From Paludibacteraceae bacterium (GTDB lineage: Bacteria; Bacteroidota; Bacteroidia; Bacteroidales; Paludibacteraceae): a DNA stretch of 64,000 nucleotides. The DNA is taken from positions 186,001 through 250,000 of the forward strand of contig JAEERP010000002.1 in assembly GCA_016285885.1 (NCBI GenBank), read 5' to 3'. Below are positions 7,128 to 39,235 of this stretch, in pieces; the stretch's first letter is position 1, and every line of letters begins with the position of its first letter. Made by a program: the position numbers and the translations under genes. Under the pieces are notes generated by a model. That model searched no databases and was not told the origin of the DNA. It was given only the letters and a program-made list of their open reading frames with translations.

Positions 7128-7154
7128 ATAGTGGACATCTCTTATATTTATAGA

Positions 7155-8153: not shown

Positions 8154-8157
8154 CATT

Positions 8158-12308: not shown

Positions 12309-13292
12309 TTATTCTTCAAACAAATGCGTTGACAAGTATCTCAAGCCCGTGTCAGGCAAGAGCGCTACAATGTTTTTGCCCTTGAACTCTTCCCGCTGAG
12401 CCAATTGGGTGGCGGCGTAGAGGGCTGCTCCAGATGATGCACCCACTAATACACCATCACTCTTCGCCAAGAGGCGCGCGGCTTCGTAGGCTTGGTTGGT
12501 GTGGATCTCGAAATAACCATCGTATACTTTACGGTCCAAGTTGGCAGGGATATACTCCTCCTTGGTGTTCTCGAACGGATGGACACCTGTGATCTCCTCT
12601 TGGTCTGGACGCTCAGGTGATTGGAAGGAATCCTCTGTTGGCTGCACGCCGAAAATCTTCACGTTCGGGTTCTTCGATTTCAGGAAGTTGCCCACACCCG
12701 AAAGGGTTCCGCCCGTACCCACGCAGGCGACGAAGACATCCACCTTTCCGTCGGTGTCGTTCCAAATCTCAGGACCGGTGGTCTGGAAGTGGACGTTCGG
12801 GTTGGCAGGGTTGCGGGTCTGGTCGGCGAACCAAAGGTTCTTCTCGCCGGCGACGTGACGCTCCAACGCCTCCACACACTTGATGAAGTCCGGACCATAC
12901 TTCTCGAAGGACTCAACGATCTCAGGCACTTCCGACAGTTTCACCGTCTTTCCACCCAAGGCGTGGATTACTTGGAAACGCTCTTTCGACACCTGGTCTT
13001 GGATGTAAACACGGAAAGGGTAACCCTTAGCGGCCGCGATGGCTGCCAAACCCACACCCGTGTTGCCGCTGGTGAGCTCGATGATGGTGTCACCCTTCTT
13101 GAGCTTTCCTTCCCGCTCGGCCGTCTCCACCATGGCGAGGGCGATGCGGTCCTTGACGGACTGGTTCGGGTTGAAGTACTCTAATTTAGCGATAATGTTA
13201 GCCTTGAGGTTTTTTGCTTTGTTATATCCATTTAGTTGGAGAAGAGGGGTCTTACCCACTAACTCCGCTATTGATTGATGAATGTTTGCCAT
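12309..13292 (-). CDS. Divergent cysteine synthase-like enzyme heading the second nif-like operon
   Basis: 327 aa, fold-type II PLP enzyme. PLP lysine in NPNQSVKDR, LTSGNTGVGLA substrate loop, [10 protein letters not shown] phosphate loop, GASSGAA and PDTGLRYLST are intact. It differs from the two ordinary CysK copies by YIQDQVSKERFQ in place of LPDTMSxERR, by an insert near 117-150 and by a PTEDSFQSPERPDQ loop, so the substrate pocket may be altered. It lies 14 bp before the D-like gene and has its own promoter. The likely job is to trap the product (sulfide or a thiol) of the nitrogenase-like enzyme on an activated serine or homoserine; acceptor and donor are not known. Confidence 0.85.
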   Translation of the reverse strand: MANIHQSIAELVGKTPLLQLNGYNKAKNLKANIIAKLEYFNPNQSVKDRIALAMVETAEREGKLKKGDTIIELTSGNTGVGLAAIAAAKGYPFRVYIQDQVSKERFQVIHALGGKTVKLSEVPEIVESFEKYGPDFIKCVEALERHVAGEKNLWFADQTRNPANPNVHFQTTGPEIWNDTDGKVDVFVACVGTGGTLSGVGNFLKSKNPNVKIFGVQPTEDSFQSPERPDQEEITGVHPFENTKEEYIPANLDRKVYDGYFEIHTNQAYEAARLLAKSDGVLVGASSGAALYAATQLAQREEFKGKNIVALLPDTGLRYLSTHLFEE

Positions 13293-14539: not shown

Positions 14540-14568
14540 GAGAGAACCTCAGAGGAATAAATGTAATT

Positions 14569-18455: not shown

Positions 18456-19118
18456 CTATTTTTGTGCTTTTTGGGAAGCCTTTTCCCCGATTGTCTGGAT
18501 GATTTGTACCAACCCGATCAGTAAGAGCACCGTAATGATCATGACATCTGTTTGGTAGCGATAGTAGCCGAACCGTATGGCAAGATCGCCGACGCCACCG
18601 CCGCCCACTATGCCGGCCATGGCTGAGTAGCCCACCAGCGTGACGGCCAAGACGGTTAGTCCACGGATCATGCCACTGAAAGCGCCTGGCAACAAGACGT
18701 TGGTGACGATCTTGAACCATGTGGCTCCCATGGCCACAGAAGCCTCTATCACGCCTTTGTCCACGTCATGCAGATTGCCCTCCACCAAACGTGCGTAGAA
18801 GGCGATGGCTACGATACCCAACGGTACCGACGCGGCCTCGGGTCCTATGGAGGTGCCGACCACAAACTTCGTGAAAGGCAACAGCAGCACAAGCAGGATG
18901 ACGAACGGAGTGGACATGATGACGTTCAGGATGAAGCTGACCAATAAGTTGACGAACCTGTTTTGACAGATGCTGCGCTTGCTCGTGATGTAAGACAACA
19001 CGCCTAATGGAATGCCCAATATGATTGCCAATAATAGTGCTATTCCGCACATTTCCAATGTTTCCCCGAACGCTGGCAACAAGTTGCTTGCCAGTTCGGA
19101 ATAGTTAGTTTCGTTCAT
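18456..19118 (-). CDS. metI: Methionine ABC transporter permease
   Basis: 220 aa, five or so transmembrane helices. The EAA-type loop reads EASVAMGATWFKIVTNVLLPGAFSGMIRGLT, which is typical of MetI, and GYSAMAGIVGGGGVGDLAIRFGY follows. It overlaps the end of metN by 14 bp. It forms the membrane channel of the D- and L-methionine importer with MetN and the lipoprotein MetQ. In this operon it could also carry other sulfur compounds. Confidence 0.95.
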   Translation of the reverse strand: MNETNYSELASNLLPAFGETLEMCGIALLLAIILGIPLGVLSYITSKRSICQNRFVNLLVSFILNVIMSTPFVILLVLLLPFTKFVVGTSIGPEAASVPLGIVAIAFYARLVEGNLHDVDKGVIEASVAMGATWFKIVTNVLLPGAFSGMIRGLTVLAVTLVGYSAMAGIVGGGGVGDLAIRFGYYRYQTDVMIITVLLLIGLVQIIQTIGEKASQKAQK

Positions 19119-20121
19119 TTATCACCTCCGTTCTATAAGTGTTCTTACTCAAATAATCTAATCCTTTGGCCAACTCGTCTTGCGCACCGATCAATTGGAC
19201 GATCAGTATGCCGAAAGGTTTGTCGTTGATATATTCAATCTTGCCGTGCAGGATATTCACGTCTATCGCGTAATGCTTCACCACGTTGGAAACGATTGAA
19301 TCCTCCGCCTTTTCGCCATTGTATACGATCCTCACCAAAGGCTTCGTGTGGTCTTGCGTCAGGCGCTCAGGGAGATCGAGGTCGAAGGTGTGCGACAGGA
19401 GCGTCTTCGTGAATTCGTGCCGTGGTTTCGTGAAGACATCAAACACTTCGCCTAACTCCACCACCTCGCCTTTGTTCATCACAGCCACTCGTTGGCAAAT
19501 CTTCTTGACCACATCCAGTTCGTGGGTGATAAGCACTATCGTGATGCCGAACTTGACGTTGATCTTTTTTAGGAGTTCCAACACGTCGTTGGTGGTTTCC
19601 GGGTCCAATGCCGAAGTGGCCTCGTCGCAGAGCAGGATCTTGGGGTTGTTGGCCACGGCGCGGGCGATTCCCACGCGCTGTTTCTGTCCGCCACTTAAAG
19701 TGTTCGGATATACATCCGCGCGATCAGCCAAGCCGACAAGCTCCAACAGTTCGGGCACTCGTTGTTTAATTTCCTCTTGGCTTCGCCCCGCTATCTCCAT
19801 GGCGAAAGCCACGTTCTGTGCCACTGTCTTGGTGCTGACAAGGTTGAACTGCTGGAAAATCATACCGATTGAGTGGCGGAACTTCGCCAATTCTTTCCCA
19901 GATAGGCTACTTATGTCCACACCATCCACTATCGTTCGACCGCCAGTGGGGAGTTGCAGCTGGTTGACCGTGCGGAGAAGCGTGCTCTTGCCTGCGCCAC
20001 TCGTGCCTACGATTCCCCATATCTCTCCCTTCCCTATCTCGAAGGAGACGTTCCTGACCGCATTCACCGTATGGTCCTTCTTGTCTGAAAATGATACACT
20101 TACTTTATCGAATTTTATCAT
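19105..20121 (-). CDS. metN: Methionine ABC transporter ATPase
   Basis: 338 aa from MIKFDKVSVSF; the frame extends upstream to 20175, but that region is not conserved-looking. Walker A GTSGAGKST, signature LSGGQKQRVGIARA, Walker B ILLCDEATSALDP and the H-loop LITHEL are all present. The C-terminal 80 residues form the NIL domain (NVVKHYAIDVNILHGKIEYI), which binds methionine and inhibits transport when the cell is replete. It lies between metQ and metI. Confidence 0.95.
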   Translation of the reverse strand: MIKFDKVSVSFSDKKDHTVNAVRNVSFEIGKGEIWGIVGTSGAGKSTLLRTVNQLQLPTGGRTIVDGVDISSLSGKELAKFRHSIGMIFQQFNLVSTKTVAQNVAFAMEIAGRSQEEIKQRVPELLELVGLADRADVYPNTLSGGQKQRVGIARAVANNPKILLCDEATSALDPETTNDVLELLKKINVKFGITIVLITHELDVVKKICQRVAVMNKGEVVELGEVFDVFTKPRHEFTKTLLSHTFDLDLPERLTQDHTKPLVRIVYNGEKAEDSIVSNVVKHYAIDVNILHGKIEYINDKPFGILIVQLIGAQDELAKGLDYLSKNTYRTEVINERN

Positions 20122-20195
20122 CTCTAAACTCTTTTTGATGGGTGAATAGATGCTTGACCCGTATCGATCAAGCATCTATGAAAAACAATTGTGTT

Positions 20196-21080
20196 TTATC
20201 TGTTTTGTATATTCCACTTATCCACATACCACTGCGGGCGCTGGAATCTGTCATATTCATGTGCCGGATCCTCGAAATAGTTCTTGAAATCCTCGGATTC
20301 GTAAGCCTCCTGCACATCCTTCACGAATTGGGCGTCCGCGTCTTTCGTGTTGACGACAAACCAGATGAGTAGTTCAGAAGGCAAAGCCTCGCCGACAATG
20401 GAGGAGGAGAGCTTCAGCCCGGAAGAGATGGCGTAGTTGCCTGGGATCACCGCGAGCGTGCTACCATCCAGGGAACGAGGTAACTGGGCGGCTTCCAATG
20501 GAACGATCTTGAGGCCGAACGGGTTCTCGTCGATGTCGTTCTCCGTCGCCGTTTTGTCGTCGACCGTGGATTTTATCGTGAGCAAGCCGATCGAGCGGAG
20601 GAAGCGTAACGCACGGGCCAGGTTGACCGCATCATTAGGCACGGAGACGATTCCGCCCGGCTGCAGTTGCGCTTTCAGTTCGTCAACATTCTGCGCCTTG
20701 TACTTGTCGGAATATAGTCCGAGAGCCGCTGTAGGCACGGAGAAGGTGGCCGTCAGGTCAACGCCCTTCGTGTCGCAGAAATTCTGCCTGTACAGGGTGT
20801 TCTGGTAAATGTTGGCGTCTATTTCATTGTTCGCCAAAGCGAGGTTCGGAGTCACCCAGTCTGTGAATTCCACCACTTTCACGTTGTAGCCTTTCTTCTC
20901 AAGGGCAGGTTGGATGGCCGCTTTGAAGAGGTCTGAATAAGGACCAGGCGAGAAGCCTACGGAGATATCTTTTCTGTCTGCACTGGATTCCTTGGATGCA
21001 TTGCCGCATGATGAAGAGATGAATGAGTATACTATAAGCAATGCGATTGTGATCAATTTAGTCTTTTTCATACGATTCAA
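20196..21080 (-). CDS. metQ: Methionine-binding lipoprotein (NlpA/MetQ family)
   Basis: 294 aa. A lipoprotein signal peptide with lipobox SSSC near residue 25, then SVGFSPGPYSDLFKAAIQPA, FTDWVTPNLALANNEIDANI and the GGIVSVPNDAVNLARALRFL segment, all typical of MetQ. It captures substrate in the periplasm for MetNI. A second start codon lies three residues later. It follows the porin by 42 bp in the same operon, giving a path from the outer membrane to the cytoplasm. Confidence 0.94.
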   Translation of the reverse strand: MNRMKKTKLITIALLIVYSFISSSCGNASKESSADRKDISVGFSPGPYSDLFKAAIQPALEKKGYNVKVVEFTDWVTPNLALANNEIDANIYQNTLYRQNFCDTKGVDLTATFSVPTAALGLYSDKYKAQNVDELKAQLQPGGIVSVPNDAVNLARALRFLRSIGLLTIKSTVDDKTATENDIDENPFGLKIVPLEAAQLPRSLDGSTLAVIPGNYAISSGLKLSSSIVGEALPSELLIWFVVNTKDADAQFVKDVQEAYESEDFKNYFEDPAHEYDRFQRPQWYVDKWNIQNR

Positions 21081-23673: not shown

Positions 23674-24159
23674 TTAGATGAATAGGGTCCGTCCACCTTC
23701 AGAGATTTCTAGGAAGGAAGCGACGCCGAGCGTGTCCTTCACTTCGTGGATGAAGTCCGATTGTTTGAGACCGAGAACGTGCATCGCCATTTCGCAGGCG
23801 TAGAGGTTGATGCCGAGGGCGATGGCGGCTTCCACCAGTTCCTCCAGTGTTGCGACGTTGTTCTTTCTCATCAGGAATCTAAAAATCCGGGGACCTGCGC
23901 CGAAAAAGTTGAATCGGCTGGTGGGTGTGCTCTTCAGTCCGCCCATCAAAAAACCGAAGATCTTAGTTAGAAACGTACCACCCACGAGGCTTCTGCCGGT
24001 CTTCCGCTTGATGGCGTCGAGTCCCCAGAATGTAAAGAATATGTTCACCTCATATCCTACCGCCGCAGCCCCTGTCGCGAGGGTGAAGGCGGCGGTGAGT
24101 CTGTCGAATTCGCCCGAAAAGGCGATGATTGAGAGTTTTTTTTGTTGATTGTCCGCCAT
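23674..24159 (-). CDS. DsrE/DsrF-like sulfur-relay protein
   Basis: 161 aa. The pattern SIIAFSGEFDRLTAAFTLATGAAAVGYEVNIFFTFWGL and the late INLYACEMAMHVLGL, with its conserved cysteine, match the DsrE/DsrF/peroxiredoxin-like family (DsrE2-like). Such proteins bind persulfide on the cysteine and pair with TusA. It starts 4 bp after the MoeB-like gene, so the two are translationally close. Confidence 0.85.
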   Translation of the reverse strand: MADNQQKKLSIIAFSGEFDRLTAAFTLATGAAAVGYEVNIFFTFWGLDAIKRKTGRSLVGGTFLTKIFGFLMGGLKSTPTSRFNFFGAGPRIFRFLMRKNNVATLEELVEAAIALGINLYACEMAMHVLGLKQSDFIHEVKDTLGVASFLEISEGGRTLFI

Positions 24160-24163
24160 GATT

Positions 24164-24967
24164 CTATTGTTGTTTTAGTTCGCAGCTTACCTGCTTGTAT
24201 TCAATGAGTCGCTTGATGGTGGGTTGTTTGCCGCACACGGGACAGTCGTCTCGTTTGGGGATGGACATCTTCCTGAAATCCATGTTTCTCGCGTCGAAGG
24301 TGAGGAGTTGGTCCGTCAGCAGTTCTCCCACGCCCGTGATGTATTTGAGCACCTCGGCGGACTGTATCGTTCCCAGCATTCCAGCGATGGCTCCGAGTAC
24401 TCCCGCTTGTGCGCAGGAGGGTGCGGATTCTGGTGGCGCGTCGAAGAGGCATCGGTAGCAGTTGCTGCCCGGGACATGGGTGAACGTCTGTCCCTCGAAC
24501 TGGAAGATACCCCCGTGGCTGAATGGTTTGCCCGTCAGGACGCAAGCGTCGTTGATTAGGTATTTTACGGGGAAGTTATCCGTCGCGTCCACGATGAAAT
24601 CATACTCCTTGAACAGATCCAGCGCATTGTCCGCCTTTAGAAACTCTTGGTAGGCGATCGCGTTGACGAGCGGGTTGAGCGCATTGACCTTCTCCTTGGC
24701 GGATAGGGCCTTCGAGTAGCCCACGTCGGGGGTAGTGTGGATGATCTGACGCTGCAGGTTGCTTAGGTCTACCGCATCACCGTCGATGATGCCTATTGTT
24801 CCGACGCCGGCGGCCGCCAGGTATAGGATGACCGGCGAACCGAGTCCTCCCGCCCCGACAACCAGGACCTTGGCGTTCCGGATCTTTTCTTGACCTTCCA
24901 CGCCCACCTCCTTCAAGAGAATGTGGCGGGAGTATCGATTGATTTCCTCTTCGCTAAAATCAAACAT
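24164..24967 (-). CDS. MoeB/ThiF/HesA-family adenylyltransferase
   Basis: 267 aa E1-like enzyme. RYSRHILLKEVG, ATP loop VVGAGGLGSPV, the IIDGDAVDLSNLQRQ metal motif and DATDNFPVKYLIND are all present; zinc is held by CYRC and CPVC. These enzymes adenylate the C-terminal glycine of a ThiS/MoaD/CysO-type carrier so that it can take sulfur. No such carrier is visible in the operon, although TusA and DsrE follow. Possible roles are thiocarboxylate-dependent cysteine synthesis with a carrier elsewhere, or thiamin/molybdopterin sulfur activation. Confidence 0.88.
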   Translation of the reverse strand: MFDFSEEEINRYSRHILLKEVGVEGQEKIRNAKVLVVGAGGLGSPVILYLAAAGVGTIGIIDGDAVDLSNLQRQIIHTTPDVGYSKALSAKEKVNALNPLVNAIAYQEFLKADNALDLFKEYDFIVDATDNFPVKYLINDACVLTGKPFSHGGIFQFEGQTFTHVPGSNCYRCLFDAPPESAPSCAQAGVLGAIAGMLGTIQSAEVLKYITGVGELLTDQLLTFDARNMDFRKMSIPKRDDCPVCGKQPTIKRLIEYKQVSCELKQQ

Positions 24968-25066: not shown

Positions 25067-25894
25067 TCAACTTTTCACATATCCCCAGATGCCGAGTGAA
25101 CGGCTTTGCTTGGGAAGGAATTTGAGCGGTAGAGCCTTTAAGCCTATACGCTTCCGTATTTTCTTGAACTCGTCCGAGTAGTAGTAATACTCGTCCGTCA
25201 GCTTAAAGGATTTGACCCATTGCTCGATTTGCCTCGGATTGTCGCATCCCCAGCGGAAAGAGGCTTTGGTGTTCTTGACGGATTCGTGGAGGTTGGTACG
25301 CTCGCTCAAGTACTTGTTCATGCGCTCCATGTACACTTCCGCGTTTTCGAAGTTCGCGTCGATGTTGTGGAAAACCCGCTTCACCTCTTCCTCTGTCAGG
25401 TACATCGCCACCCCCTCTAGGATGAACAGGAAGTGCCCGTTGGGGTGCTCCTCCTTGATGGATTTGATCCATCCGTCGGTTGTGATATTGCCTGTGAGAT
25501 ATTTGTTGTCGGACGATTCTGGCAGGAACTGCCGCCTCAGATTGATTACGTCCAGGAAGTCCAACTCGTAGGCTTGGTACTTCTTGCTGATGGCGACACG
25601 CTCAATGCGCGGGTCCAGTCCGCATGCGACGAGCACCACCACCGCATCGTCGTATTTGCTCACAAAGTTCTTCAATACGTTATCGAAATATTTAGTTCTA
25701 AATGACACACATAGTTGACATCGTTCATCTGCAGAAAATTTGCTAAAGTCATAATCTACCATCGAAAGGATATCTTCCGACGTCTTGTCCGTGATGATAG
25801 GATCTTTTTCCTTGGATTCTTTAGCCCTCATGAAGAGAGGAATCAAGAGCGTTTCTGAAACGTTCTCCTGAAATTCGGGTCTGATCTTGCCCAT
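25067..25894 (-). CDS. LCMT/PPM1-family SAM-dependent methyltransferase
   Basis: 275 aa. The leucine-carboxyl-methyltransferase-like signature is clear: CVSFRTKYFDN, the SAM loop VVLVACGLDPRIER, acidic YELDFLDVINLR and LFILEGVAMYLTEEEV. Bacterial members methylate small acids, polyketides or unknown substrates. It sits between the cystathionine enzyme and the MoeB-like gene in a sulfur operon, so it may methylate a thiol or a sulfur-bearing acid, or help recycle SAM. Substrate unknown. Confidence 0.8.
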   Translation of the reverse strand: MGKIRPEFQENVSETLLIPLFMRAKESKEKDPIITDKTSEDILSMVDYDFSKFSADERCQLCVSFRTKYFDNVLKNFVSKYDDAVVVLVACGLDPRIERVAISKKYQAYELDFLDVINLRRQFLPESSDNKYLTGNITTDGWIKSIKEEHPNGHFLFILEGVAMYLTEEEVKRVFHNIDANFENAEVYMERMNKYLSERTNLHESVKNTKASFRWGCDNPRQIEQWVKSFKLTDEYYYYSDEFKKIRKRIGLKALPLKFLPKQSRSLGIWGYVKS

Positions 25895-25936: not shown

Positions 25937-27094
25937 TCATTTCAATGCTTGGCGGAAATCGTTGATTAGATCTTCCGTGTTTTCTATGCCTGCCGAGATG
26001 CGGATCAGCGTGTCGGAGATTCCGTTCTTCTCGCGCACCTCCTTCGGCACGGAGGCGTGTGTCATGATGGCTGGTATCTCCGCCAGGCTCTCCACGCCAC
26101 CCAAACTCTCTGCGGTCGAGAAGAGTTTCAGCTTCGACAGGAAGTTCTCGGCGTCCGTGAGTGTTCCCTCCAGTTCGAACGAGAGAACGCCACCGAAGCC
26201 TGTGGTCTGCGCCGCCGCGATGTCGTGGTGCGGGTGATCTTTCAGACCGGGGTAGAGTACGCGCTTGACTTTCGGCGATTGTTGCAGGAACTCGGCCAAC
26301 GCCTGTGCGTTCCTCTGGTGTTGCTCCATGCGCACGGCGAGCGTCTTGGCTCCGCGCAGGGTCAGGTAACTGTCGAATGGTGAGAGCACCGCACCGACAG
26401 CGTTCTGGTTGTAGGCGATCTTTTTGTAAAACTCCTCGTTGTTCAGGACGATTGAGCCTCCCAACGTGTCGCTGTGTCCGCCGATGTACTTGGTCGTGCT
26501 GTAGACCACCACGTCGGCGCCCAATTCCAGCGGTCGCTGGAAGTATGGTGACAGGAAGGTGTTGTCCACCACGAGGATGAGCCCGTGTCTCTTGGCGATT
26601 TGTGCGATAGCTTTTATGTCGGCGATTTTTAGCAATGGGTTGGTGGGTGATTCTATCCAGATCAGTCTCGTCTCAGGTTTGATCGCCTTCTCGATGTTCT
26701 CGGGAACGGTCGCGTCGACGTATGAAACGGCTATGTTGAAGTTTACAAAGACATTGCTCAACAAACGTCTCGTGCCTCCATACAGGTCGTCGAAGCCAAT
26801 CACATGGTCGCCTGCCTTCAGCAGCGAAATGATCAATGTGGAGGCTGCCGCCAAGCCTGACGAGAATGCCAGTCCGTATTTTGCGCCGTCCAATGCCGCT
26901 AACTTCTCCTCCAGCGCTTTGCGTGTAGGGTTGAGGCTGCGGGTGTATTCGTAGCCTGCTGTTGGATGACTGGCTTTCTCTCTTGCGAAGGTGGTGGCCA
27001 AATGTATAGGAACTGCGACGTCGCCGCTTGCTCCTTCTCTGAAATCGGGCTCTTCTCCGTTGTGGATCGCCCTTGTTGAAAATCCGTATGCCAT
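25937..27094 (-). CDS. Cystathionine gamma-lyase/gamma-synthase
   Basis: 385 aa from MAYGFSTRAIHNGEEPD; an in-frame extension to 27154 would overlap the previous gene. Fold-type I PLP enzyme of the Cys/Met metabolism family: YTRSLNPTRKALEEKLAAL, SSGLAA, VVDNTFLSPY, PLP lysine in STTKYIGGHSD, and SLGGVESL…PAIMTHASVP. The last motif is typical of CGL/CGS rather than O-acetylhomoserine sulfhydrylase. Next to a CBS-like gene, gamma-lyase activity (cystathionine to cysteine) is the more likely role, as in the MccA-MccB pair, but synthase activity is not excluded. Confidence 0.88.
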   Translation of the reverse strand: MAYGFSTRAIHNGEEPDFREGASGDVAVPIHLATTFAREKASHPTAGYEYTRSLNPTRKALEEKLAALDGAKYGLAFSSGLAAASTLIISLLKAGDHVIGFDDLYGGTRRLLSNVFVNFNIAVSYVDATVPENIEKAIKPETRLIWIESPTNPLLKIADIKAIAQIAKRHGLILVVDNTFLSPYFQRPLELGADVVVYSTTKYIGGHSDTLGGSIVLNNEEFYKKIAYNQNAVGAVLSPFDSYLTLRGAKTLAVRMEQHQRNAQALAEFLQQSPKVKRVLYPGLKDHPHHDIAAAQTTGFGGVLSFELEGTLTDAENFLSKLKLFSTAESLGGVESLAEIPAIMTHASVPKEVREKNGISDTLIRISAGIENTEDLINDFRQALK

Positions 27095-27117
27095 GATAAT
27101 TTTGAATTTTGAATTTA

Positions 27118-28095
27118 TTATAGTTTGACGTTTAGGTTTTTCTCCTTCAACCATTCGTCGTTGAACATCTTGGAGAGGTATTTGTTACCGCTGTCGCAAG
27201 CTAGGGTGACGATCCGTTTCGGGGTGGTCTGTTCCTGTGCGTAACGTAGGGAGGCGCTTAGGAGCGTGCCGGTGGAGGATCCTGCCAGGATGCCTTCTTC
27301 CCTCAGCAAAAGACGGGCGGCGGTGAAGCTCTCCTCGTCGGTCACTTCATAGGCTTTCGTCACCAAATCGAAGTCCGCCAGCTTAGGAATGTAATCCTCT
27401 CCGATGCCCTCGACGAACCATGAACCCGCATCGTTGCGCAGTTTCTTCAGGTTGATGTAGTCCGCAAGGACGGAGCCTTTCGGGTCGGCGAGGATGAACT
27501 CGGTCTGTGGACTGACGGTCTTGAAGAATTTTGTCAAGCCGGTTAATGTACCCGCTGAGCCGACGCCCACGACGACAGCGTCCACCTTGTGCTCCAACTG
27601 CTCCCAGATTTCAGGGCCTGTGGTTAGGAAGTGCGTGTCGGGGTTGTCTTGGTTCTCGAATTGGTTGATGTAATAACCGCCCCGCTCCTGTGCGATCCGT
27701 GCGGCCAAGTCTTGGTAATACTCCGGGTGGCCTTTGCCCACATCGCTTCGGGTGATGACGGTCTCCACACCCAATGCGCGGAGGTGGTTGATCTTCTCGG
27801 TGCTCATCTTGTCAGGGATCACCAGCAAGAGCTTGTAACCTTTCAATCGGCTGGCCAACGCAAGGCCTAACCCTGTATTGCCTGCTGTCGCCTCCACGAT
27901 GAGTTGCCCCGGACGGATCGTTCCGCGCTTCTCCGCCTGGACGATCATGTTCAGTCCGGTGCGGTCCTTGATGCTACCCCCAGGGTTCTGGTTCTCCAAT
28001 TTTAAGAATAGGGAACTCTTACCTGTGTTCAATCTTGAGAGTTGGACAATCGGTGTGTTGCCAATCGTTTCCAATATGTTACTATAAACTGCCAT
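27118..28095 (-). CDS. Cystathionine beta-synthase-type PLP enzyme (MccA-like)
   Basis: 325 aa. PLP lysine in NPGGSIKDR and loop EATAGNTGLGLA (A in place of the CysK S), phosphate loop GVGSAGTLTGL in place of [14 protein letters not shown], and CDSGNKYLSKMFND at the end. This pattern is closer to CBS/MccA than to CysK. There is no haem or CBS-domain extension. With the downstream CGL it forms reverse transsulfuration, turning homocysteine (from methionine or captured methanethiol) into cysteine. First structural gene after poly-Cys leader B, 175 bp away. Confidence 0.88.
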   Translation of the reverse strand: MAVYSNILETIGNTPIVQLSRLNTGKSSLFLKLENQNPGGSIKDRTGLNMIVQAEKRGTIRPGQLIVEATAGNTGLGLALASRLKGYKLLLVIPDKMSTEKINHLRALGVETVITRSDVGKGHPEYYQDLAARIAQERGGYYINQFENQDNPDTHFLTTGPEIWEQLEHKVDAVVVGVGSAGTLTGLTKFFKTVSPQTEFILADPKGSVLADYINLKKLRNDAGSWFVEGIGEDYIPKLADFDLVTKAYEVTDEESFTAARLLLREEGILAGSSTGTLLSASLRYAQEQTTPKRIVTLACDSGNKYLSKMFNDEWLKEKNLNVKL

Positions 28096-28695: not shown

Positions 28696-30045
28696 TTATT
28701 TTCCTCCAACAGATGCGCTATAGATCCTTTCCAGGAACTGCAAAGCGCCTTTGTAGCCGATGTGGGAACGGTTGACGATGAGCGTCTCGGACGAAGGCGT
28801 CGAGATCTCAAAGAACAAGGCGTTCTTCTTGTTGGCGAGGGTGAGTTCCCAAGAGGTGCCGAGAATCAATGGCTTGCCTGACGTGAACTCTACGCTCTCG
28901 ATCAGTTTCTCCACCTCGTAACCATCCTCTTCGAAGACGACATCGATGCTCACTCCCTCGGAGATATTGTTCTTGAAGTACTCCGAAATGGCGGGGCGGA
29001 ACTTCTCCGGTGTCTTGTCGGTGATGATCACCTGTTTCGGGATCAGACCGATCTGGTCCGCCAGGAACTTCGAGTAGGCCAATGCGTAGGATGCGTCCGC
29101 CGTCACGACAAACTCGCTTGGCATACCGTACCAATATTCCGCGAAGAACTCGGAGAAGTGTTCGAGGTAGTAGTAATAGATATCCGCCTCTTGCTTGATG
29201 AACTCCTCGGACTGCTTCTTGTCGATGCCTGCGAACTCCACCACCTGACGGATGAACTTAGCCGTAGCCTCCTCGCCGACAGGGATCTCAGGGATGTGCA
29301 GGTAGGGTTGGTTGTACTTCTTCTGGAGATGCTCCGCGTTCTTGACGCCCACCCATGGTGAAACCACCAGGTTGAATTGCGCCTGAGGAATGCGTTTCCA
29401 AGCCTCCACGCCCGGGTTCTCAGGACCGAACAACACGTTCACTTCCAAGCCTGCACCACGCAAGATACGTGCGAGCTCCTGGTAGTCTCCTCGCCAGTTC
29501 TGGTTGTAGTAAGGCACTTCAAACCAGAGGTTGACGAGGCCTTTCTTCTTCTCTCCTTCGTAGTTCCCTACGTATTGGTCGATGATGGCATCCACCACTG
29601 TTTCGTGACCGAAGATATTATTGCCCTTGAAACCGGCCGTGTTAGCGTAGACGATAGGGTAGCCCGCCTTCTGGTACTTGCCCACGAGGTCAGGCACGTT
29701 GTCGCCGATCAGCTCACCCGTACAACCCGTCAGGACCACGAAGAGGTCTCCGTCGTAGATCTTCAGCGTTGATTTGATAAGATTGTCGAGGGTCTTTATA
29801 CCACCGAAGACTACATCATTCTCTGTTGCGTTGGAGCTTGGCATGTTTCCGCCTCCAGCCGCGATACTACCTTGAAAACCGTTCTCGAAGGTCAACATGG
29901 CGGTAGTCTTCAGCTGACAGCCAGGGCTACAATTGGCGATTGGCACTGCACCTTTGATGGCCACTACGGTGTTGGTCGCACCCACCGCGCAAGCATATCG
30001 GACATCGGATATTACCGAAGGTTTCTTCTTTTGTATTTCGCTCAT
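28696..30045 (-). CDS. Nitrogenase-like beta subunit (NifK/MarK-like), first pair
   Basis: 449 aa. Cluster ligands: C19 in RYACAVGATN, C43 (with C39) in ANCSPGC, and C108 in LTGCTGELIGDN. The N-terminal extension of true NifK is missing. TAGFKGNNIFGHE, PYYNQNW and SPWVGVKN are shared with the second K-like protein. It follows the D-like gene by 36 bp and should pair with it. Last gene of the operon, before a terminator. The family is nitrogenase-like rather than nitrogenase: the dinitrogen-fixing accessory genes are lacking and the setting is sulfur metabolism. Confidence 0.9.
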   Translation of the reverse strand: MSEIQKKKPSVISDVRYACAVGATNTVVAIKGAVPIANCSPGCQLKTTAMLTFENGFQGSIAAGGGNMPSSNATENDVVFGGIKTLDNLIKSTLKIYDGDLFVVLTGCTGELIGDNVPDLVGKYQKAGYPIVYANTAGFKGNNIFGHETVVDAIIDQYVGNYEGEKKKGLVNLWFEVPYYNQNWRGDYQELARILRGAGLEVNVLFGPENPGVEAWKRIPQAQFNLVVSPWVGVKNAEHLQKKYNQPYLHIPEIPVGEEATAKFIRQVVEFAGIDKKQSEEFIKQEADIYYYYLEHFSEFFAEYWYGMPSEFVVTADASYALAYSKFLADQIGLIPKQVIITDKTPEKFRPAISEYFKNNISEGVSIDVVFEEDGYEVEKLIESVEFTSGKPLILGTSWELTLANKKNALFFEISTPSSETLIVNRSHIGYKGALQFLERIYSASVGGK

Positions 30046-30081
30046 TTGATTGATTCTTTTGATGTTAAAAACTTAGAGGAA

Positions 30082-31644
30082 TTATTCGCCCAATCGCTCT
30101 TCGATCTCCTTGAAGACCTCCTTATCGTTGGTGAGCTTGAACGGATCGGTCTGGCTAAACCACCAATCGTTGTAAGGCAAGCGTACGTGGCGCTGCAGTG
30201 TCTTGTTGAACTTCGTGCGGGCCAGCACACCCTTCAGGATTTCACCCACACGCAGGATTCCGTCGTAACCCACAGGGATGTGCTCGTCGCCTAAGGCGAA
30301 GGTTGGCACACCAAGGTGTCCTGCCACTGAGGCGAGACCTGGGTGACGGATGATCAGGAAGTCCGTCTTCACACGCTTCAAGAGCTGAGGCAACTGGAAG
30401 GCACGGGTCTTGCTGACCGTGTAGTGAGGAATGTCACCGTAGGTCTCGACCAACTCCTTCAAGGTGTCTTGGTTCTTACCCGCACCATCGTAGACGGGGT
30501 CGTGGTGGAAGACCAGGGCGGCCTCGTTCTTGATGCCCAACTCAGCCAACACGCTGATCAATCCGTGCGCGTAGGCGGAACCGGTGAGCACCATTCCGTA
30601 CTTGCCTTTGAAGTATTCACGGTACTCCTCCAATTTCGGAGCGATACGCTTATGCTCGCTTTCGATATACTCCTCAACTTCCTTCTCCTTGCCCACCACC
30701 TTGGCGATGGCGCGCAACCAAGCGTCTGTTCCCTTGATACCGTAAGGTTGTGGGGCGTCGATCTGTGGCACGCCGAACTGGTCTTCAAGCGCCGCACCCA
30801 TGTATCCACCGAGCGTTTCGCAGAAGGTGGTGGTGGCGACTGCCTCCGAAGCCTGACGGATCTCCTCGAACGAAGCACAGTCCAAAAGGTAGTTCACCCG
30901 CAAGCCAAGCGGTTTCAACAAGTCGGTGAACCAGTCCGTACCCCACAAGGCGATGATATTGATTAAATCTTTCTGTTTCTTTTTCGGATGTCTTTCAACA
31001 ATCTGTCTCAAAACACCATGGAAAGCCACGTCGAAACCGGTACTCCAGTGTTTGCTTCGGAAGCCCTCGCAGTGCAGTGGGATGATAGGCACACCCACCT
31101 CTGGCTCCAACTCCTCCGCCACGCTGTCGATATCCTCACCTGTGATGGCCGTCGCGCAGGCCATGGCGATGAAGATAGCCTTCGGATTGTAACGCTCCTT
31201 GGCGATGCGGATGGCTTGTCTCAGCTTGGCCGCGCCACCGAACACCATGTCTTTCTCTTGGAGGTTGGTACTCATGTTAAGTGTGTTCTGCTGAGGCTTG
31301 CCACGACGTTCCAATCCCTTGTGCATGGAGAGGTTGAACTTCGCACATTCACTACTACATCCGATAGGCGCATGGTCAATCAAGACACAATCGGTAAGGT
31401 TACCGATCTGACACTGTACGATGGCATTGGAGCACATGGTCTCTTGGTTCAGCGGGCTCTGCAATTCGCAAAGCCTACAGCCTTGTCCGGCGCCCTTGCA
31501 GCCTCCGTGCTTCTTTACGCTTCGCTCGTCGTAGGCAGACTGTTCGATCAGCTGCTTGGCCGAGCCGTCCCACCCGATGATCGTGCCGAGCCGCAACTCG
31601 CGGTTCTCGACGGTGGTCATATTTAAATTGATTCTATTCGCCAT
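30082..31644 (-). CDS. Nitrogenase-like alpha subunit (NifD/MarD-like), first pair
   Basis: 520 aa, the probable catalytic chain. P-cluster-type ligands C71 (TMCSNAIVQC), C96 (APIGCSSEC) and C163 (MACATAITGEDID); cofactor cysteine C275 in ATTTFCETLGGYMG. H455 in GDEHIPVGYDG is the best candidate for the histidine that holds the molybdenum-side of the cofactor in nitrogenase. An extra N-terminal cysteine set (CKGAGQGCRLC, residues 49-59) is shared in part with the second copy (CGTLKGCARC). With NifH and NifB in the same operon but no NifEN, it fits the MarBHDK type: reductive cleavage of C-S bonds. Substrate not known. Confidence 0.92.
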   Translation of the reverse strand: MANRINLNMTTVENRELRLGTIIGWDGSAKQLIEQSAYDERSVKKHGGCKGAGQGCRLCELQSPLNQETMCSNAIVQCQIGNLTDCVLIDHAPIGCSSECAKFNLSMHKGLERRGKPQQNTLNMSTNLQEKDMVFGGAAKLRQAIRIAKERYNPKAIFIAMACATAITGEDIDSVAEELEPEVGVPIIPLHCEGFRSKHWSTGFDVAFHGVLRQIVERHPKKKQKDLINIIALWGTDWFTDLLKPLGLRVNYLLDCASFEEIRQASEAVATTTFCETLGGYMGAALEDQFGVPQIDAPQPYGIKGTDAWLRAIAKVVGKEKEVEEYIESEHKRIAPKLEEYREYFKGKYGMVLTGSAYAHGLISVLAELGIKNEAALVFHHDPVYDGAGKNQDTLKELVETYGDIPHYTVSKTRAFQLPQLLKRVKTDFLIIRHPGLASVAGHLGVPTFALGDEHIPVGYDGILRVGEILKGVLARTKFNKTLQRHVRLPYNDWWFSQTDPFKLTNDKEVFKEIEERLGE

Positions 31645-31653
31645 AATGAATTT

Positions 31654-32124
31654 TTATTCTTCTTGATTTTTAAACTTCAGCTTCCTCTCGTCGATTTTGT
31701 AGTAGTAGGCGACGATCTTCTCCAAGGCCTCTTTGATAGGCATTTCGATGTCAAAAACCGATATCGCCTTGCGCTCGAACTGTTTCAGAATGTTGCGCCC
31801 GATCTTTTTGCAGATCACACATCGGCAATCGGAAAGCAACTCCACGGCTTCCGACTTTCCTCCGTTGTCGCAGCCGTTCTTGCTTCCGCAGCCGGTGCCA
31901 CAACCGGAGTTACAGCCGTTGCCATTATTTGTGCCACAACCAGTCTCGCCACCGACATTGTTGGTGCTCGGGAGAACCTGATCGTCTGAGGTTGGGACAT
32001 CCCTGGTCTCTGTTTTCAGGAAGTCCGTATCGTCGACCGTGTAGATGTCGAAGCTCCGAGCCGACCCAAAATGCAGGTCTACATTCACTCCGTCAGATGT
32101 GGCAACCGCAATTTTGTACCTCAT
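31654..32124 (-). CDS. NifX/NafY-domain protein with Cys/Gly/Asn-rich insertion
   Basis: 156 aa. The N-terminal half (YKIAVATSDGVNVDLHFGSARSF) and C-terminal half (CKKIGRNILKQFERKAISVF) form the dinitrogenase iron-molybdenum cofactor-binding fold that carries NifB-co. Between them, residues 60-90 are made almost only of G, N, C, S, T and K with cysteines at 63, 71, 75, 79 and 85, followed by C100, C102 and C105. This insertion may bind iron or hold a cluster in transit. It sits between nifH and nifD, ideal for a cofactor carrier. No close family name is known to me for the inserted form. Confidence 0.8.
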   Translation of the reverse strand: MRYKIAVATSDGVNVDLHFGSARSFDIYTVDDTDFLKTETRDVPTSDDQVLPSTNNVGGETGCGTNNGNGCNSGCGTGCGSKNGCDNGGKSEAVELLSDCRCVICKKIGRNILKQFERKAISVFDIEMPIKEALEKIVAYYYKIDERKLKFKNQEE

Positions 32125-32162
32125 AAACTATCAACTTTTACCTTTAAACTCTTAACTCTTAA

Positions 32163-33026
<864 letters not shown>

Positions 33027-33055
33027 TTATGCCACGAAATGTGGCGGGTGAATAA

Positions 33056-33421
33056 TTAAAATAAGTTTTGAATTTCGTTGTAAGAATAAATTTTGTCTAA
33101 AGCGTCGGTCAGCTCGCCCGGCAAGGCCATCGCCACGATCCCCTTCTGTGTCAGCAGGGCGCTGGCTCCTATTCCGATGCGTGACGCGGTGACGTATTGG
33201 CAGTCGGAGAAGAGTTCCACCCGCTTCTCCATGTCGTCCCTGGAGTGTACTCCGTTCTGACAAACCGGGGGTGCCGTGCGTCTCTCCACATAGACCCATT
33301 CTCCCTCGAAGAACTGGTAAATGTAAAAGTCCGTGGCTCTGCCAAAGTGCGTGTCGACCGTGTATCCGTCCGTCGAGGCCGCCGCTACTCGAAATGCGTT
33401 GTACTGCTTCTTGTCATCCAT
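33056..33421 (-). CDS. NifX-like cofactor-binding domain protein
   Basis: 121 aa, a single NifX/NifB-C-terminal-type domain: RVAAASTDGYTVDTHFGRATDFYIYQ, ERRTAPPVC, then LFSDCQYVTASRIGIGASALLTQKGI. It overlaps the end of the NifB-like gene by 8 bp. In many NifB proteins this domain is fused to the radical SAM part; here it is separate. Probably receives the NifB product. Confidence 0.82.
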   Translation of the reverse strand: MDDKKQYNAFRVAAASTDGYTVDTHFGRATDFYIYQFFEGEWVYVERRTAPPVCQNGVHSRDDMEKRVELFSDCQYVTASRIGIGASALLTQKGIVAMALPGELTDALDKIYSYNEIQNLF

Positions 33422-34331
33422 GTGAAAAAGTGTCTGATACTACAAAATCTTCTGAATAGACCTCCTTGGAGAACTCGCTCACGCCTGGCACGCCCACAGC
33501 GTCCGCGCGACAGCGGTTGCAGTGGCGGAAGACGTCGATGTACTTCCCCGCGCTCTTCCTCGCCTCCTCGATCTCGAAGCAGAAAGGCGCTTTTTCGTCT
33601 TTCAGTTCGTAGGTCGGTATCAGCGGGATGATGTTGTAGATGGAGGCGCCTAAGGAGGAAACCGTCTTGGCGATCTGCTCGATGTGGCTTCCGTTGATCC
33701 GCGGCACCAGTACGGTGTTGACCTTTACGGTGATACCGCTCTTCGCCACCTTGCGGATACCATTCAACTGGTTCTCGATCAATATCTTGGCACCCTCGTA
33801 AGCGTCGTATTTCTTCCCATGGTAGAGGACGAACTTGTTCAACTTCGCCTCGATCTCAGGGTCGATCGCATTCACGGTCACCGTCAGCGAATCGATCTTG
33901 GACGCAATCACTTGGTCCGCCTTCTCGTCGAGCAGTAATCCGTTGGTGCTCATACACTTGAGCAGGTGCGGGAACTCTTTGTCCACTAGGCGGAAGGTCT
34001 CCAAGGCCGTGTCGGTTGCCAGCGTGTCGCCCGGTCCAGCGATGCCTGCCACTTTGATGTCTGGACATATCTTCAGCGCCTTTCTAAGGATGGCGATGCT
34101 CTCCTCCGGTTTGATCACCTTCGCCGTAACACCTGGGCGGTTCTCCGTGTCGTTCAGCACGCGGCTGCAAAAGCGGCAACCGATGTTACATGCCGGACTG
34201 ACAGGCAAGTGAATCCTTCCCAGATTGCCCGGTTTAGAGGCGAAACATGGATGGTTATTGCGTAATTTCTCTTGGTTCTCAGTCATAAATTTTTGATATA
34301 ATAATCCCCCCTCCGACAACTTTTCAGCCAT
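33414..34331 (-). CDS. nifB: NifB-like radical SAM cofactor maturase
   Basis: 305 aa. HPCFASKPGNLGRIHLPVSP followed by radical SAM CNIGCRFC (C48, C52, C55), then RPGVTAKVIKPEESI, VAGIAGPGDTLATD, CMSTNGLLL and HCNRCRADAVGVPG with the two further cluster cysteines. NifB builds the 8Fe-9S-carbide core (NifB-co) of nitrogenase cofactors. With no NifEN present, the core may be used without maturation. A second start (34286, MTENQEKL) is possible. Preceded by a hairpin and cysK4 with no promoter between, so co-transcribed. Confidence 0.92.
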   Translation of the reverse strand: MAEKLSEGGLLYQKFMTENQEKLRNNHPCFASKPGNLGRIHLPVSPACNIGCRFCSRVLNDTENRPGVTAKVIKPEESIAILRKALKICPDIKVAGIAGPGDTLATDTALETFRLVDKEFPHLLKCMSTNGLLLDEKADQVIASKIDSLTVTVNAIDPEIEAKLNKFVLYHGKKYDAYEGAKILIENQLNGIRKVAKSGITVKVNTVLVPRINGSHIEQIAKTVSSLGASIYNIIPLIPTYELKDEKAPFCFEIEEARKSAGKYIDVFRHCNRCRADAVGVPGVSEFSKEVYSEDFVVSDTFSHG

Positions 34332-34467: not shown

Positions 34468-35406
34468 TTAATTATTTGAGAACAAGGCGGTTGACAAGTA
34501 TCTGTCACCAGAATCAGGCAGGAGAACCACGATGTTCTTCCCTTTGTTCTCAGGACGTTCTGCCAAGATCGAAGCAGCCTTCAATGCCGCACCTGAGGAG
34601 ATACCCACCAAGATACCTTCGCTCACCGCGAATTTCCTTCCCTCGGTGAAGGCGTCCTCGTTCTCTATGGCGATCACCTCATCGTAGATCTTCGTGTTCA
34701 ACGTCTCTGGAACGAAGCCCGCACCGATACCTTGGATCTTGTGTGAACCAGCTGTTCCTTTCGACAAGACAGGTGATGTGGCAGGCTCCACAGCTACTAC
34801 CTTCACGTTCGGGTTCTTGGATTTCAGGAATTCGCCCACACCTGACAATGTACCGCCAGTACCTACACCAGCCACGAAGATGTCCACCTTGCCGTCTGTC
34901 TGGTCCCAGATCTCAGGACCTGTGGTCTCGCGGTGAATCTTAGGGTTGGCAGGGTTCACGAATTGACCCAAGATAACAGAACCTTTGATCTCCTTGTTGA
35001 GCTCCTCCGCCTTGGCGATGGCACCCTTCATTCCCTTTGCGCCTTCGGTCAATACGATCTCCGCACCGTAAGCCTTGAGAAGGTTTCTACGCTCCACGCT
35101 CATCGTGTCAGGCAAGGTCAAGATCGCCTTGTAACCCTTAGCGGCTGCTACTGCGGCCAAACCGATACCCGTGTTGCCGGATGTTGGCTCGATGATGGTG
35201 GCGCCTGCTTTCAGAACACCTTTCTTCTCCGCATCCTCGATCATCGCGAGGGCGATACGGTCCTTGACTGAACCTGCAGGATTAAGGTACTCCAACTTCG
35301 CCAAAAGCGTTGCGTTTTTTACACCTGCGTTCTTAGAATAATTGTTGAGTTTCAAAATCGGCGTATTGCCAATCAACTCCAATGAACTTTCAATAATCTT
35401 TGCCAT
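34468..35406 (-). CDS. cysK: Cysteine synthase A, copy 2, heading the main nif-like operon
   Basis: 312 aa from ATG 35406, which has a perfect AGGAGG 8 bp upstream; a TTG six bases earlier is less likely. NPAGSVKDR with PLP lysine, [28 protein letters not shown] and [10 protein letters not shown] are complete. Nearly identical to the copy at 1499-2437. As first gene of the nif-like operon it should convert sulfide (or a thiol) set free by the reductase, plus O-acetylserine from CysE, into cysteine. Confidence 0.95.
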
Positions 35407-35469
35407 TTTCAAATCCTCCTATTCGTTATGTTATTGTATTCTCTATCGTTTTGCTATCGTTTGACATTG

Positions 35470-38356: not shown

Positions 38357-39235
38357 TTATATTCCCGCACCGTCGGCGAACATCTCCTCGACCGCCCTTT
38401 GCTGAACGATCTTCGAGTATGGTCTGACGCTCTGGGTGACCCAGATGTTACCGCCCACGATGGTGTCGTGTCCGATGGTGATGCGTCCTAGGATAGAGGA
38501 GTTGGAGTAGATAGTGACATTATCCTCAATGATAGGGTGCCTTGGCGTGTTGAGCAGGACACCCTGCTCGTTCTTGGCGAATTTCTTGGCGCCGAGCGTA
38601 ACACCTTGATAGAGTGTGACGTGGTTGCCGATGATGCTGGTCTCGCCGATGACGACGCCTGTGCCGTGGTCGATGGCGAAGTATTCACCGATCTGTGCGC
38701 CCGGGTGGATGTCGATACCCGTCTTGGAGTGCGCCAACTCCGTGATGATGCGGGGCAGTACAGGCACACCTAGTTTCAGGAGGGCGTGTGCCACGCGGTA
38801 GTGGAGCATCACCTGTACGATCGGGTAGCAGAAGATGATCTCTCCGTAGGCGGTGACGGCCGGGTCAGCTTTCGCCATCGCTTCGATGTCCGTGTACAGA
38901 ACCCTTTTTATCTCAGGGATGGTGTCGATGAACTGCAAAACGATTTCGTCGCTCTTGTCCTCTTGGATTTCCTCCCCTTTGAAACTCTTGAAACTGAGGC
39001 TTATCTGTTCCTTCAGGTATTTCTCCAAGTTCTCTATGCTCACGCCCACGTGGTAGTGGCGGCTTTCTGTGCTACGGATCTCCGCACCGAAATAACCCGG
39101 GAATATGATTTGTTTGATTGTCTCTATGATTTTCTCGATGACAGGAATAGACGGTTGCTTGCCGCCCTCCGTCTTCATGAATTTTTCCTGGTCGGTGATT
39201 TTTGCGAGGTTTTTTACTATTTCTTTCTTATTCAT
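38357..39235 (-). CDS. cysE: Serine O-acetyltransferase
   Basis: 292 aa. A helical N-terminal part, then a left-handed beta-helix with hexapeptide repeats: HSKTGIDIHPGAQIGEYFAIDHGTGVVIGE, catalytic histidine in DHGTG, GVTLGAKK, and RHPIIEDNVTIYSNSSILG. It makes the O-acetylserine used by the CysK enzymes. A TAACTTTG box lies at 39261-39268. Its short C-terminal tail ends AGI, consistent with docking into CysK (the tail usually ends in isoleucine). Confidence 0.94.
   Translation of the reverse strand: MNKKEIVKNLAKITDQEKFMKTEGGKQPSIPVIEKIIETIKQIIFPGYFGAEIRSTESRHYHVGVSIENLEKYLKEQISLSFKSFKGEEIQEDKSDEIVLQFIDTIPEIKRVLYTDIEAMAKADPAVTAYGEIIFCYPIVQVMLHYRVAHALLKLGVPVLPRIITELAHSKTGIDIHPGAQIGEYFAIDHGTGVVIGETSIIGNHVTLYQGVTLGAKKFAKNEQGVLLNTPRHPIIEDNVTIYSNSSILGRITIGHDTIVGGNIWVTQSVRPYSKIVQQRAVEEMFADGAGI

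Follow-up and report, generated by a model that had tools for sequence, protein, structure and literature searches.

Two nitrogenase-like D/K pairs, one of methylthio-alkane reductase type by sequence, in a sulfur-gene island of a Paludibacteraceae bacterium

The stretch of DNA considered here (hereafter the window) comprises 64,000 nucleotides of contig JAEERP010000002.1 from a Paludibacteraceae bacterium, whose genome is a 3.75-Mb assembly in 46 contigs with completeness given as 100. At its centre is an operon of nitrogenase-like genes on the minus strand, in the order B-X1-H-X2-D1-K1, which a first-pass annotation had described as a BHDK operon at 28696..34331; the open reading frames do lie at exactly these coordinates, and their Pfam matches are far beyond chance (PF00148, E=2.6e-60 and 5.9e-76; PF00142, E=2.1e-130). 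B (33414..34331) is a NifB-type radical S-adenosylmethionine (SAM) enzyme without a NifX domain, X1 (33056..33421; PF02579, 62 bits) is a NifX-domain protein overlapping the end of B, H (32163..33011) is a NifH-type ATP-dependent reductase with Cys97 and Cys132, and X2 (31654..32124; PF02579, 50.6 bits) is a second NifX-domain protein carrying a Cys/Gly-rich insert. These are followed by D1 (30082..31644) and K1 (28696..30045). Besides D1/K1 at 28696-31644, the window holds a second nitrogenase-like pair on the same strand at 9530-12294, D2 (10828..12294) and K2 (9530..10828), which the annotation did not mention. A profile search of the whole 3.75-Mb genome returned four PF00148 proteins, all four inside the window (D1, K1, D2 and K2), and there is therefore no NifEN elsewhere in the genome. 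The absence of NifE and NifN that had been claimed for the operon is thus borne out, the four proteins making up two pairs that are both related to methylthio-alkane reductase (MAR).

The best solved relative of D1 is the MAR of Rhodospirillum rubrum (607 bits to MarD, 9fmg_A, vs 141 bits for the best nitrogenase, the next non-MAR match; 55% identity to R. rubrum MarD), and that of K1 is MarK (9d9u_C, 487 bits, next 67). For comparison we used twelve MarD residues from the structural report, namely P-cluster Cys66/91/158, the ligands Cys270 and His429 with the hallmark Arg428 (Loop I), and the pocket residues Cys73, Gln74, His194, Trp195, Phe199 and His375 (PMC12552129). All 12 are kept in D1, the six pocket residues among them: C71, C96 and C163 correspond to Cys66/91/158, and the [Fe8S9C] ligands C275 and H434, with R433, to Cys270, His429 and Arg428. 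K1 likewise keeps all three of its P-cluster cysteines (C19, C43 and C108, equivalent to MarK Cys32/56/121), so that the cluster-binding cysteines listed in the annotation for H, D1 and K1 are correct as written. For a D tree, 465 D/K matches (346 distinct) were reduced to D-type sequences of at least 385 amino acids which, with three references, gave 179 rows that were thinned at 85% to 75 representatives. D1 falls in a 22-row clade with R. rubrum MarD (support 100/100), in which the latter adjoins a 20-row D1 clade at a fork supported at 93/74; two representatives of the 20-row clade have Thr for Cys73 and the other eleven checked positions are constant. The NifD, VnfD/AnfD and NifE rows, named by pocket motif and place in nif clusters and not by family scan, form a 26-row group separated from D1 by a 100/99 branch. 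The annotation had proposed a phylogeny of this kind against Nif, Vnf/Anf and Mar sequences and had held that a position within nitrogenase clades, with nifEN elsewhere, would speak against its account; D1 is in the MarD clade instead, and the genome has no other PF00148 protein. Given its place in that clade and the full set of twelve residues, D1/K1 is MAR-type by the sequence tests made, its clade being sister to R. rubrum MarD. Ratios of non-synonymous to synonymous change (dN/dS) of 0.002-0.08 for D1, K1 and H denote strong purifying selection, with 11/11, 5/10 and 6/10 comparisons, respectively, having dS > 0.1 and being unsaturated. We also considered a D-K read-through product (one open frame of 985 amino acids) and rejected it: the window D1 terminates at TAA, a further stop follows in the spacer, and neither the reading frame nor the stop codon is constant across 83 D-K pairs.

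The partner of this pair does not follow the MAR pattern. No MarH-type protein accompanies D1/K1: H scores 485 bits against NifH of Clostridium pasteurianum (1cp2) vs 296 against MarH (9fmg_D), and lies above the NifH equivalog cut-off (TIGR01287, 463 bits vs 394). This is a feature of the partner and not of the catalytic component. B is NifB-like, with 279 bits to NifB 7jmb and a TIGR01290 score (253 bits) below the cut-off of 344. A NifH of this kind is the first of several reasons one might see a true minimal nitrogenase here, with NifDK-like D1/K1 fixing N2, as gut surveys of Cluster III nifH assumed for close relatives. One such survey keeps Prevotella bryantii B14 and Lachnospira among gut diazotroph candidates, finds Cluster III nifH in 10.7-31.7% of individuals of four populations, and reports both incorporation of 15N2 by faecal samples and retention of the nitrogenase histidine in other Clostridiales of that clade (Igai 2016; PMC4995403); a Roseiflexus nitrogenase without NifEN has also been reported (PMC11573651). 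We nevertheless regard this explanation as very unlikely indeed. C. pasteurianum NifHDK resembles the window in its NifH, a close relative of H, but the window D/K proteins lie elsewhere in the tree, D1 has the Arg428-His429 of the MAR-type ligand loop and not the nitrogenase pattern, no further PF00148 protein is present that could supply a NifEN, and R. rubrum MAR did not reduce 15N2 in vitro (PMC12552129). Among the matches listed, the D1 of Segatella baroniae B14 is 94% identical to that of the window. In this strain, formerly P. bryantii B14, the only PF00148 proteins are the two of its MAR-type D1/K1 pair, and the nitrogenase reading is accordingly not supported for it.

Another group IV enzyme, isethionate reductase (Isr) or some other sulfonate-cleaving relative, might be suggested by the NMT1/TauA-type importers that stand beside some relatives, and the IsrBHDK of Rhodobacter capsulatus is likewise a sulfur-scavenging BHDK system. 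However, IsrD lacks the L-cluster ligands, the equivalent of Cys275 among them, and two of the three D-side P-cluster cysteines, and IsrB is nearest to BciD (PMC11423573); D1 and D2 retain all of the ligands that IsrD loses, and the window B is NifB-like. On these grounds isethionate reductase was excluded, and we give the wider sulfonate-cleaving alternative next to no chance. One protein of the survey does look IsrD-like: at locus L186 (7460-8854, minus strand) a D-type protein with one of the three D-side P-cluster cysteines and without Cys270 lies beside a divergent H.

D2/K2 is the more distant of the two pairs (307 bits for D2 to 9fmg_A; 371 bits for K2 to MarK 9d9u_C) but has the same cluster ligands. 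D2 retains C52, C77, C143, C257 and R413-H414, equivalent to the P- and L-cluster ligands with Arg428-His429, and K2 retains Cys12, Cys36 and Cys95, so that together they keep all six P-cluster cysteines. In the pocket, Gln74, Trp195, Phe199 and His375 are kept while His194 is replaced by Ile and Cys73 by Ser. The Ile at position 194 and the ligands are kept in all 20 further D2 rows from Clostridia-family loci. In the D tree, D2 forms a separate six-row clade (100/97) outside MarD and two further groups, in a position sister to MarD and its relatives; one row of this clade, L175, is a long branch with Ala for His429. A structure model of D2 (mean predicted local distance difference test score 77.9, predicted template modelling score 0.81) has 9fmg_A as its best match (template modelling score (TM) 0.84/0.88), the listed non-MAR chains of the nitrogenase family reaching TM 0.65-0.71 by query length, with the caveat that the alignment behind the model consists mostly of D1-type rows and may pull it towards MarD. 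Both D2 and K2 are under strong purifying selection (dN/dS 0.005-0.08, 9/9 comparisons each).

With no H of its own beside it in the window, D2/K2 could be imagined as a NifEN-like scaffold that matures the cluster for D1/K1 and is not itself a reductase. The first sample of genomes agrees with this in so far as D1/K1 was found in 15 of 61 and D2/K2 in 12 of 61, always alongside D1/K1 (12/12), the pairs having been told apart by score, and by identity where sequences were fetched, in draft genomes. Yet three of those 15 drafts have D1/K1 without D2/K2, and the wider search points the other way. A D2-type gene (at least 60% identity) is present in 25 of 397 genomes of the [Clostridium] polysaccharolyticum family (Lachnospiraceae at NCBI), two of these being short partial matches, and in five genomes in which every first-look candidate was scored (G850, G924, G1048, G1060 and G1117) D2 is the sole match at E 1e-40. 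The arrangement cysK-B-X1-H-cysK(divergent)-D2-K2-X2 is common among 20 Clostridia-family D2 loci. H and B accompany D2 in 16 of the 20 stretches, and in 14 the first recognised gene on the 5' side of D2 is a cysK homologue; three stretches (L277, L278 and L279) have neither H, B nor cysK. The window keeps one element of this arrangement directly upstream of D2, a divergent cysteine synthase (12309..13292, minus strand; TIGR01136 324 bits, cut-off 344). Because H and B accompany it in most of these loci, D2 is the sole match in those five genomes, and neither the six P-cluster cysteines nor the two L-cluster ligands have been lost, D2/K2 has the look of a self-sufficient reductase that is frequently linked to cysteine synthase, and a scaffold role appears very improbable.

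A different possibility is that D2/K2 is an 'Nfa' (group IV-A) enzyme of the kind for which N2 fixation has been proposed in Endomicrobium proavitum, that is, an unusual nitrogenase. In a published tree, Nfa neighbours MarD and IsrD (PMC11423573), and our own D trees contain no NfaD sequence among their rows. We judge this improbable, although less so than a scaffold, since NfaH is reported to group with MarH and not with NifH (PMC9147875) while D2 operons carry a NifH-type H, since D2 is linked with cysteine synthase, and since D2 has Arg428-His429 and, where NifD has Gln191/His195, Trp/Phe.

The ancestry of H bears on how the autonomous-looking D2/K2 and the MAR-type D1/K1 came to share a locus. 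In a second H tree (built without L186 and L156, whose branches were long or odd, L156 being the representative of the Fibrobacter H proteins, and without adding rows at least 99% identical to the window H) the window H is in a 12-row clade (98/98) together with H proteins from rumen Bacteroidota and from the D2 operons of Clostridia. A separate 9-row group (99/95) contains Clostridia and Succinivibrio H proteins, most of them beside D1-type genes. In the D2 tree, six Bacteroidota rows (100/100) are nested in a 20-row Clostridia clade (100/99). We infer from this that a Clostridia cysK-B-X-H-cysK-D2-K2 operon entered these Bacteroidota. As H is of the D2-operon lineage, D1/K1 probably took the slot of D2 beside H, leaving cysK-D2-K2 some 16 kb off. 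A single H and a single B would in that case serve both pairs. Six relatives show 96-97% identity in D1 but 67-71% in X2, so that X2 evolves much faster than D1.

The sulfur context of the island is extensive. The claim that every neighbour deals with cysteine, methionine or sulfur relay holds broadly for 18.4-39.2 kb, with the exception of a porin-like protein, an LCM-type methyltransferase and PdxS/PdxT/ThiD. On the minus strand, a cysteine synthase gene, cysK (34468..35412; TIGR01139 446 bits, above cut-off), is one whose homologue precedes B-X-H in most D2 operons seen, and there are five strong CysK-family matches in the genome, four of them in the window (two weak ones, of 47 and 25 bits, were set aside). 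Near K1 are an enzyme resembling cystathionine beta-synthase (CBS) or O-acetylserine sulfhydrylase, downstream of K1 (27118..28095; TIGR01137 341 bits, below the cut-off of 510), and one of the cystathionine gamma-lyase (CGL)/synthase family (25937..27154; NF005871 506 bits, cut-off 513; NF005810 470, cut-off 594), a combination that fits homocysteine-to-cysteine transfer. The same strand carries a MoeB/ThiF adenylyltransferase (24164..24967; PF00899 271 bits), a DsrE2-family sulfur carrier (23674..24159; PF13686 132 bits), a three-gene MetI-MetN-MetQ-type importer (18456..21080; 184, 377 and 130 bits, all below cut-off) and a cysE-type serine acetyltransferase (38357..39235; TIGR01172 154 bits, below the cut-off of 211). 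The genome has two MetY genes, one ending 9.5 kb left of the window, and a profile search of it found no NIR_SIR domain. Linkage to cysteine synthase is a property of D2 more than of D1: cysK is within 4 kb of 28 of 37 D2 copies vs 18 of 81 D1 copies (p 5e-8), or 22/27 vs 13/43 (p 6e-5) for loci with at least 4 kb on both sides, figures that leave CBS uncounted and come from fetched loci with many near relatives, the p values ignoring kinship. An importer gene of the tested types is within 4 kb of 30/81 D1 copies and 12/37 D2 copies. Within the [Clostridium] polysaccharolyticum family, NIR_SIR is present in 5 of 25 D2-bearing vs 29 of 55 D2-free genomes (p 0.007, which ignores kinship; the 55 were drawn in list order from 353 without a match).

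Taken together, these results make it probable, in our view, that the island serves to scavenge organic sulfur, with two catalytic components and a single supply of electrons and cofactor beside them. The families, cluster ligands and gene linkage are read from the sequence, and from them we infer roles for B, the X proteins and H, their sharing by both pairs, and the substrates and products. B, helped by X1 and X2, would build the [Fe8S9C] cluster, and an H dimer would feed in electrons with ATP. D1/K1 would then reductively cleave the C-S bond of an imported methylthio compound to give methanethiol, which the two MetY enzymes of the genome could convert to methionine, with the CBS/CGL genes passing sulfur on to cysteine; D2/K2 would be a sister reductase whose pocket has Ile in place of His194 and Ser in place of Cys73. 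The likeness to MarBHDK that the annotation drew stands for D and K (clade, twelve residues, sulfur neighbourhood and lack of NIR_SIR) and extends to the hallmark residues and the NifB-type B of R. rubrum MarBHDK (9fmg, 9d9u). It fails in other respects, for the window has two NifX-domain proteins and two catalytic pairs, no mtnA was found, and D2 is without the His194 and Cys73 of R. rubrum MarD; with an H that is NifH-type and not MarH, this is not simple MarBHDK.

Several points weigh against the scavenging interpretation. H is not MarH. Nine of the 37 D2 copies have no cysK within 4 kb, some of them being on short contigs, and cysK is also near D1 in the window's own lineage (the one in the window is 2.8 kb from D1), so D2 is not alone in having a cysK link. 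NIR_SIR is present in five genomes that bear D2. A PAPS-reductase-fold match of 52 bits leaves some chance that the genome of the window has sulfate assimilation. Finally, mtnA is part of the R. rubrum route from methylthioadenosine to methylthioethanol, and it was not found in the genome, so that the known internal source of methylthioethanol seems to be missing; the R. rubrum methylthioadenosine route is therefore probably not the source of substrate, which is probably imported. This leads to a related alternative, that D1/K1 is a MAR homologue acting on some other substrate (for example an imported S-methyl amino acid) and not on volatile methylthio-alkanes. The failure to find mtnA and the importer genes near 30 of 81 D1 copies would suit this idea, as would the tree, in which D1 occupies its own 20-row subclade beside MarD. 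A shift of substrate is conceivable, given that this clade is sister to MarD and that a D1-type protein coexists with a 65% MarD-like one in Clostridium sp. LS. On the other hand, the six checked pocket residues of D1 are all as in MarD, and we think it somewhat unlikely that the substrate class has changed.

The organic-sulfur scavenging interpretation leaves room for a more specific role for D2/K2. The linked CysK suggests that D2/K2 may deliver sulfide or a similar nucleophile to cysteine synthesis, and in that way feed sulfur to cysteine. We put forward as a tentative proposal, one that could well be wrong, that D2/K2 represents a new class of [Fe8S9C]-cluster reductase, which would make sulfide from an organic or inorganic source directly for the cysteine synthase linked to it and so take the place of sulfite reductase in anaerobes of the rumen and gut. 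On that view, most of the Cluster III nifH genes long read as markers of nitrogen fixation in ruminant and human guts would be part of these sulfur-scavenging systems.

Relatives of these genes were collected in a genome scan that confirmed 570 stretches, of which the best 80 were retained, giving 79 loci; the genomes compared are largely drafts and could have gaps. Those loci whose D1 is 99% identical to that of the window belong to Paludibacteraceae metagenome-assembled genomes (the labels of three read yak rumen, sheep rumen and yak omasum), in keeping with the Bacteroidales-type genome that had been recognised from the sequence. Among the matches listed, further relatives of D1 occur in rumen Bacteroidales, Prevotellaceae, S. 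baroniae B14, Fibrobacter, Ruminococcus flavefaciens and R. albus, and also in Clostridium, [Clostridium] polysaccharolyticum and Succinivibrio; the 30 genomes of these matches that were searched have between 2 and 28 PF00148 proteins. Clostridium sp. LS (L171-L179) accounts for 28 nitrogenase-component-1 matches, in MarD-like, D1-type, D2-type and further groups, some of them beside importers. Plasmid pTS2 of Treponema saccharophilum (L285) has a D2-type gene (60%) and a second D/K pair, a cysK-radical SAM-NifX-nifH set within 9 kb, and an H annotated as 'nitrogenase iron protein'; this 382-kb plasmid has an ABC importer between its two nitrogenase-like D/K pairs. The distribution of the D1 and D2 types, considered jointly, is most simply explained by transfer among five phyla. 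In even samples, a high-scoring MAR-type D was found only in the centre genome of 299 Pseudomonadota and only in the window's own genome of 395 of the Bacteroidota group, and no relative was found in viral contigs.

Some of these genes are already in print. To the question left by the annotation of whether the family had been described in this phylum, the answer is yes: Inoue 2015 (PMC4356463) reports nifE/N-like genes of unknown function in P. bryantii, with a Group III nifH, akin to those of Fibrobacter and likely transferred, and judges N2 fixation by this organism unlikely. The NifE-like and NifN-like genes of P. bryantii B14 and Fibrobacter succinogenes are of the same gene family as D1/K1; their function was left unassigned in print, and we place them in MAR by tree and residue set. 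Links of such genes to cysteine synthase are also published, Dos Santos 2012 (PMC3464626) noting multi-copy nitrogenase-like pairs linked to O-acetylhomoserine sulfhydrylase, cysteine synthase and ABC transporters. A further related system is Heliophilum fasciatum NflDK1-5, in which several group IV D/K pairs, one of them a MarDK, are proposed to be served by one H; that H resembles MarH, unlike the NifH-type H of the window, and one of the pairs is proposed to be an N2-fixing Nfa (PMC9147875). Searches of titles and visible abstracts found no work assigning rumen Bacteroidota, Fibrobacter or Ruminococcus to MAR. As far as these searches go, the candidate assignment of the rumen genes to MAR by residue set is new, as are the D2 clade (its operon and altered pocket included), the use of a NifH-type partner and the proposed module swap. 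By extension, the human-gut nifH operational taxonomic units would belong to these same systems.

A few further features of the region are recorded here. An LCM-family SAM methyltransferase (25067..25894, minus strand; PF04072 65 bits) recurs beside D1 loci of relatives and has a counterpart in a Fibrobacter D2 locus. At 37241-38332 (minus strand), beside PdxS and PdxT, a phosphomethylpyrimidine/pyridoxine kinase is fused to an AraC-type DNA-binding domain and is possibly a pyridoxal phosphate (PLP)-sensing regulator next to many PLP enzymes. The plus-strand flanks of D2/K2 (6126-9186 and 13835-16542) encode possible membrane proteins, a weak match to putAbiC being present in one, as well as a 657-amino-acid protein lacking any Pfam match; these could be defence genes. 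The window has no Rfam match at the gathering threshold.

These assignments, read from sequence, would extend a C-S bond reductase family to rumen bacteria from several phyla, including Fibrobacter and Ruminococcus, and they point to a second enzyme that shares its cluster ligands but differs in the pocket. They also offer a possible correction to surveys of nitrogen fixation in the gut and rumen, in that P. bryantii B14 has a MAR-type D/K pair only. In vitro, R. rubrum MAR releases methane, ethane and ethylene and reduces acetylene, and it does not reduce N2 (PMC12552129); nifH detection and acetylene reduction, even when taken together, can therefore mislead.

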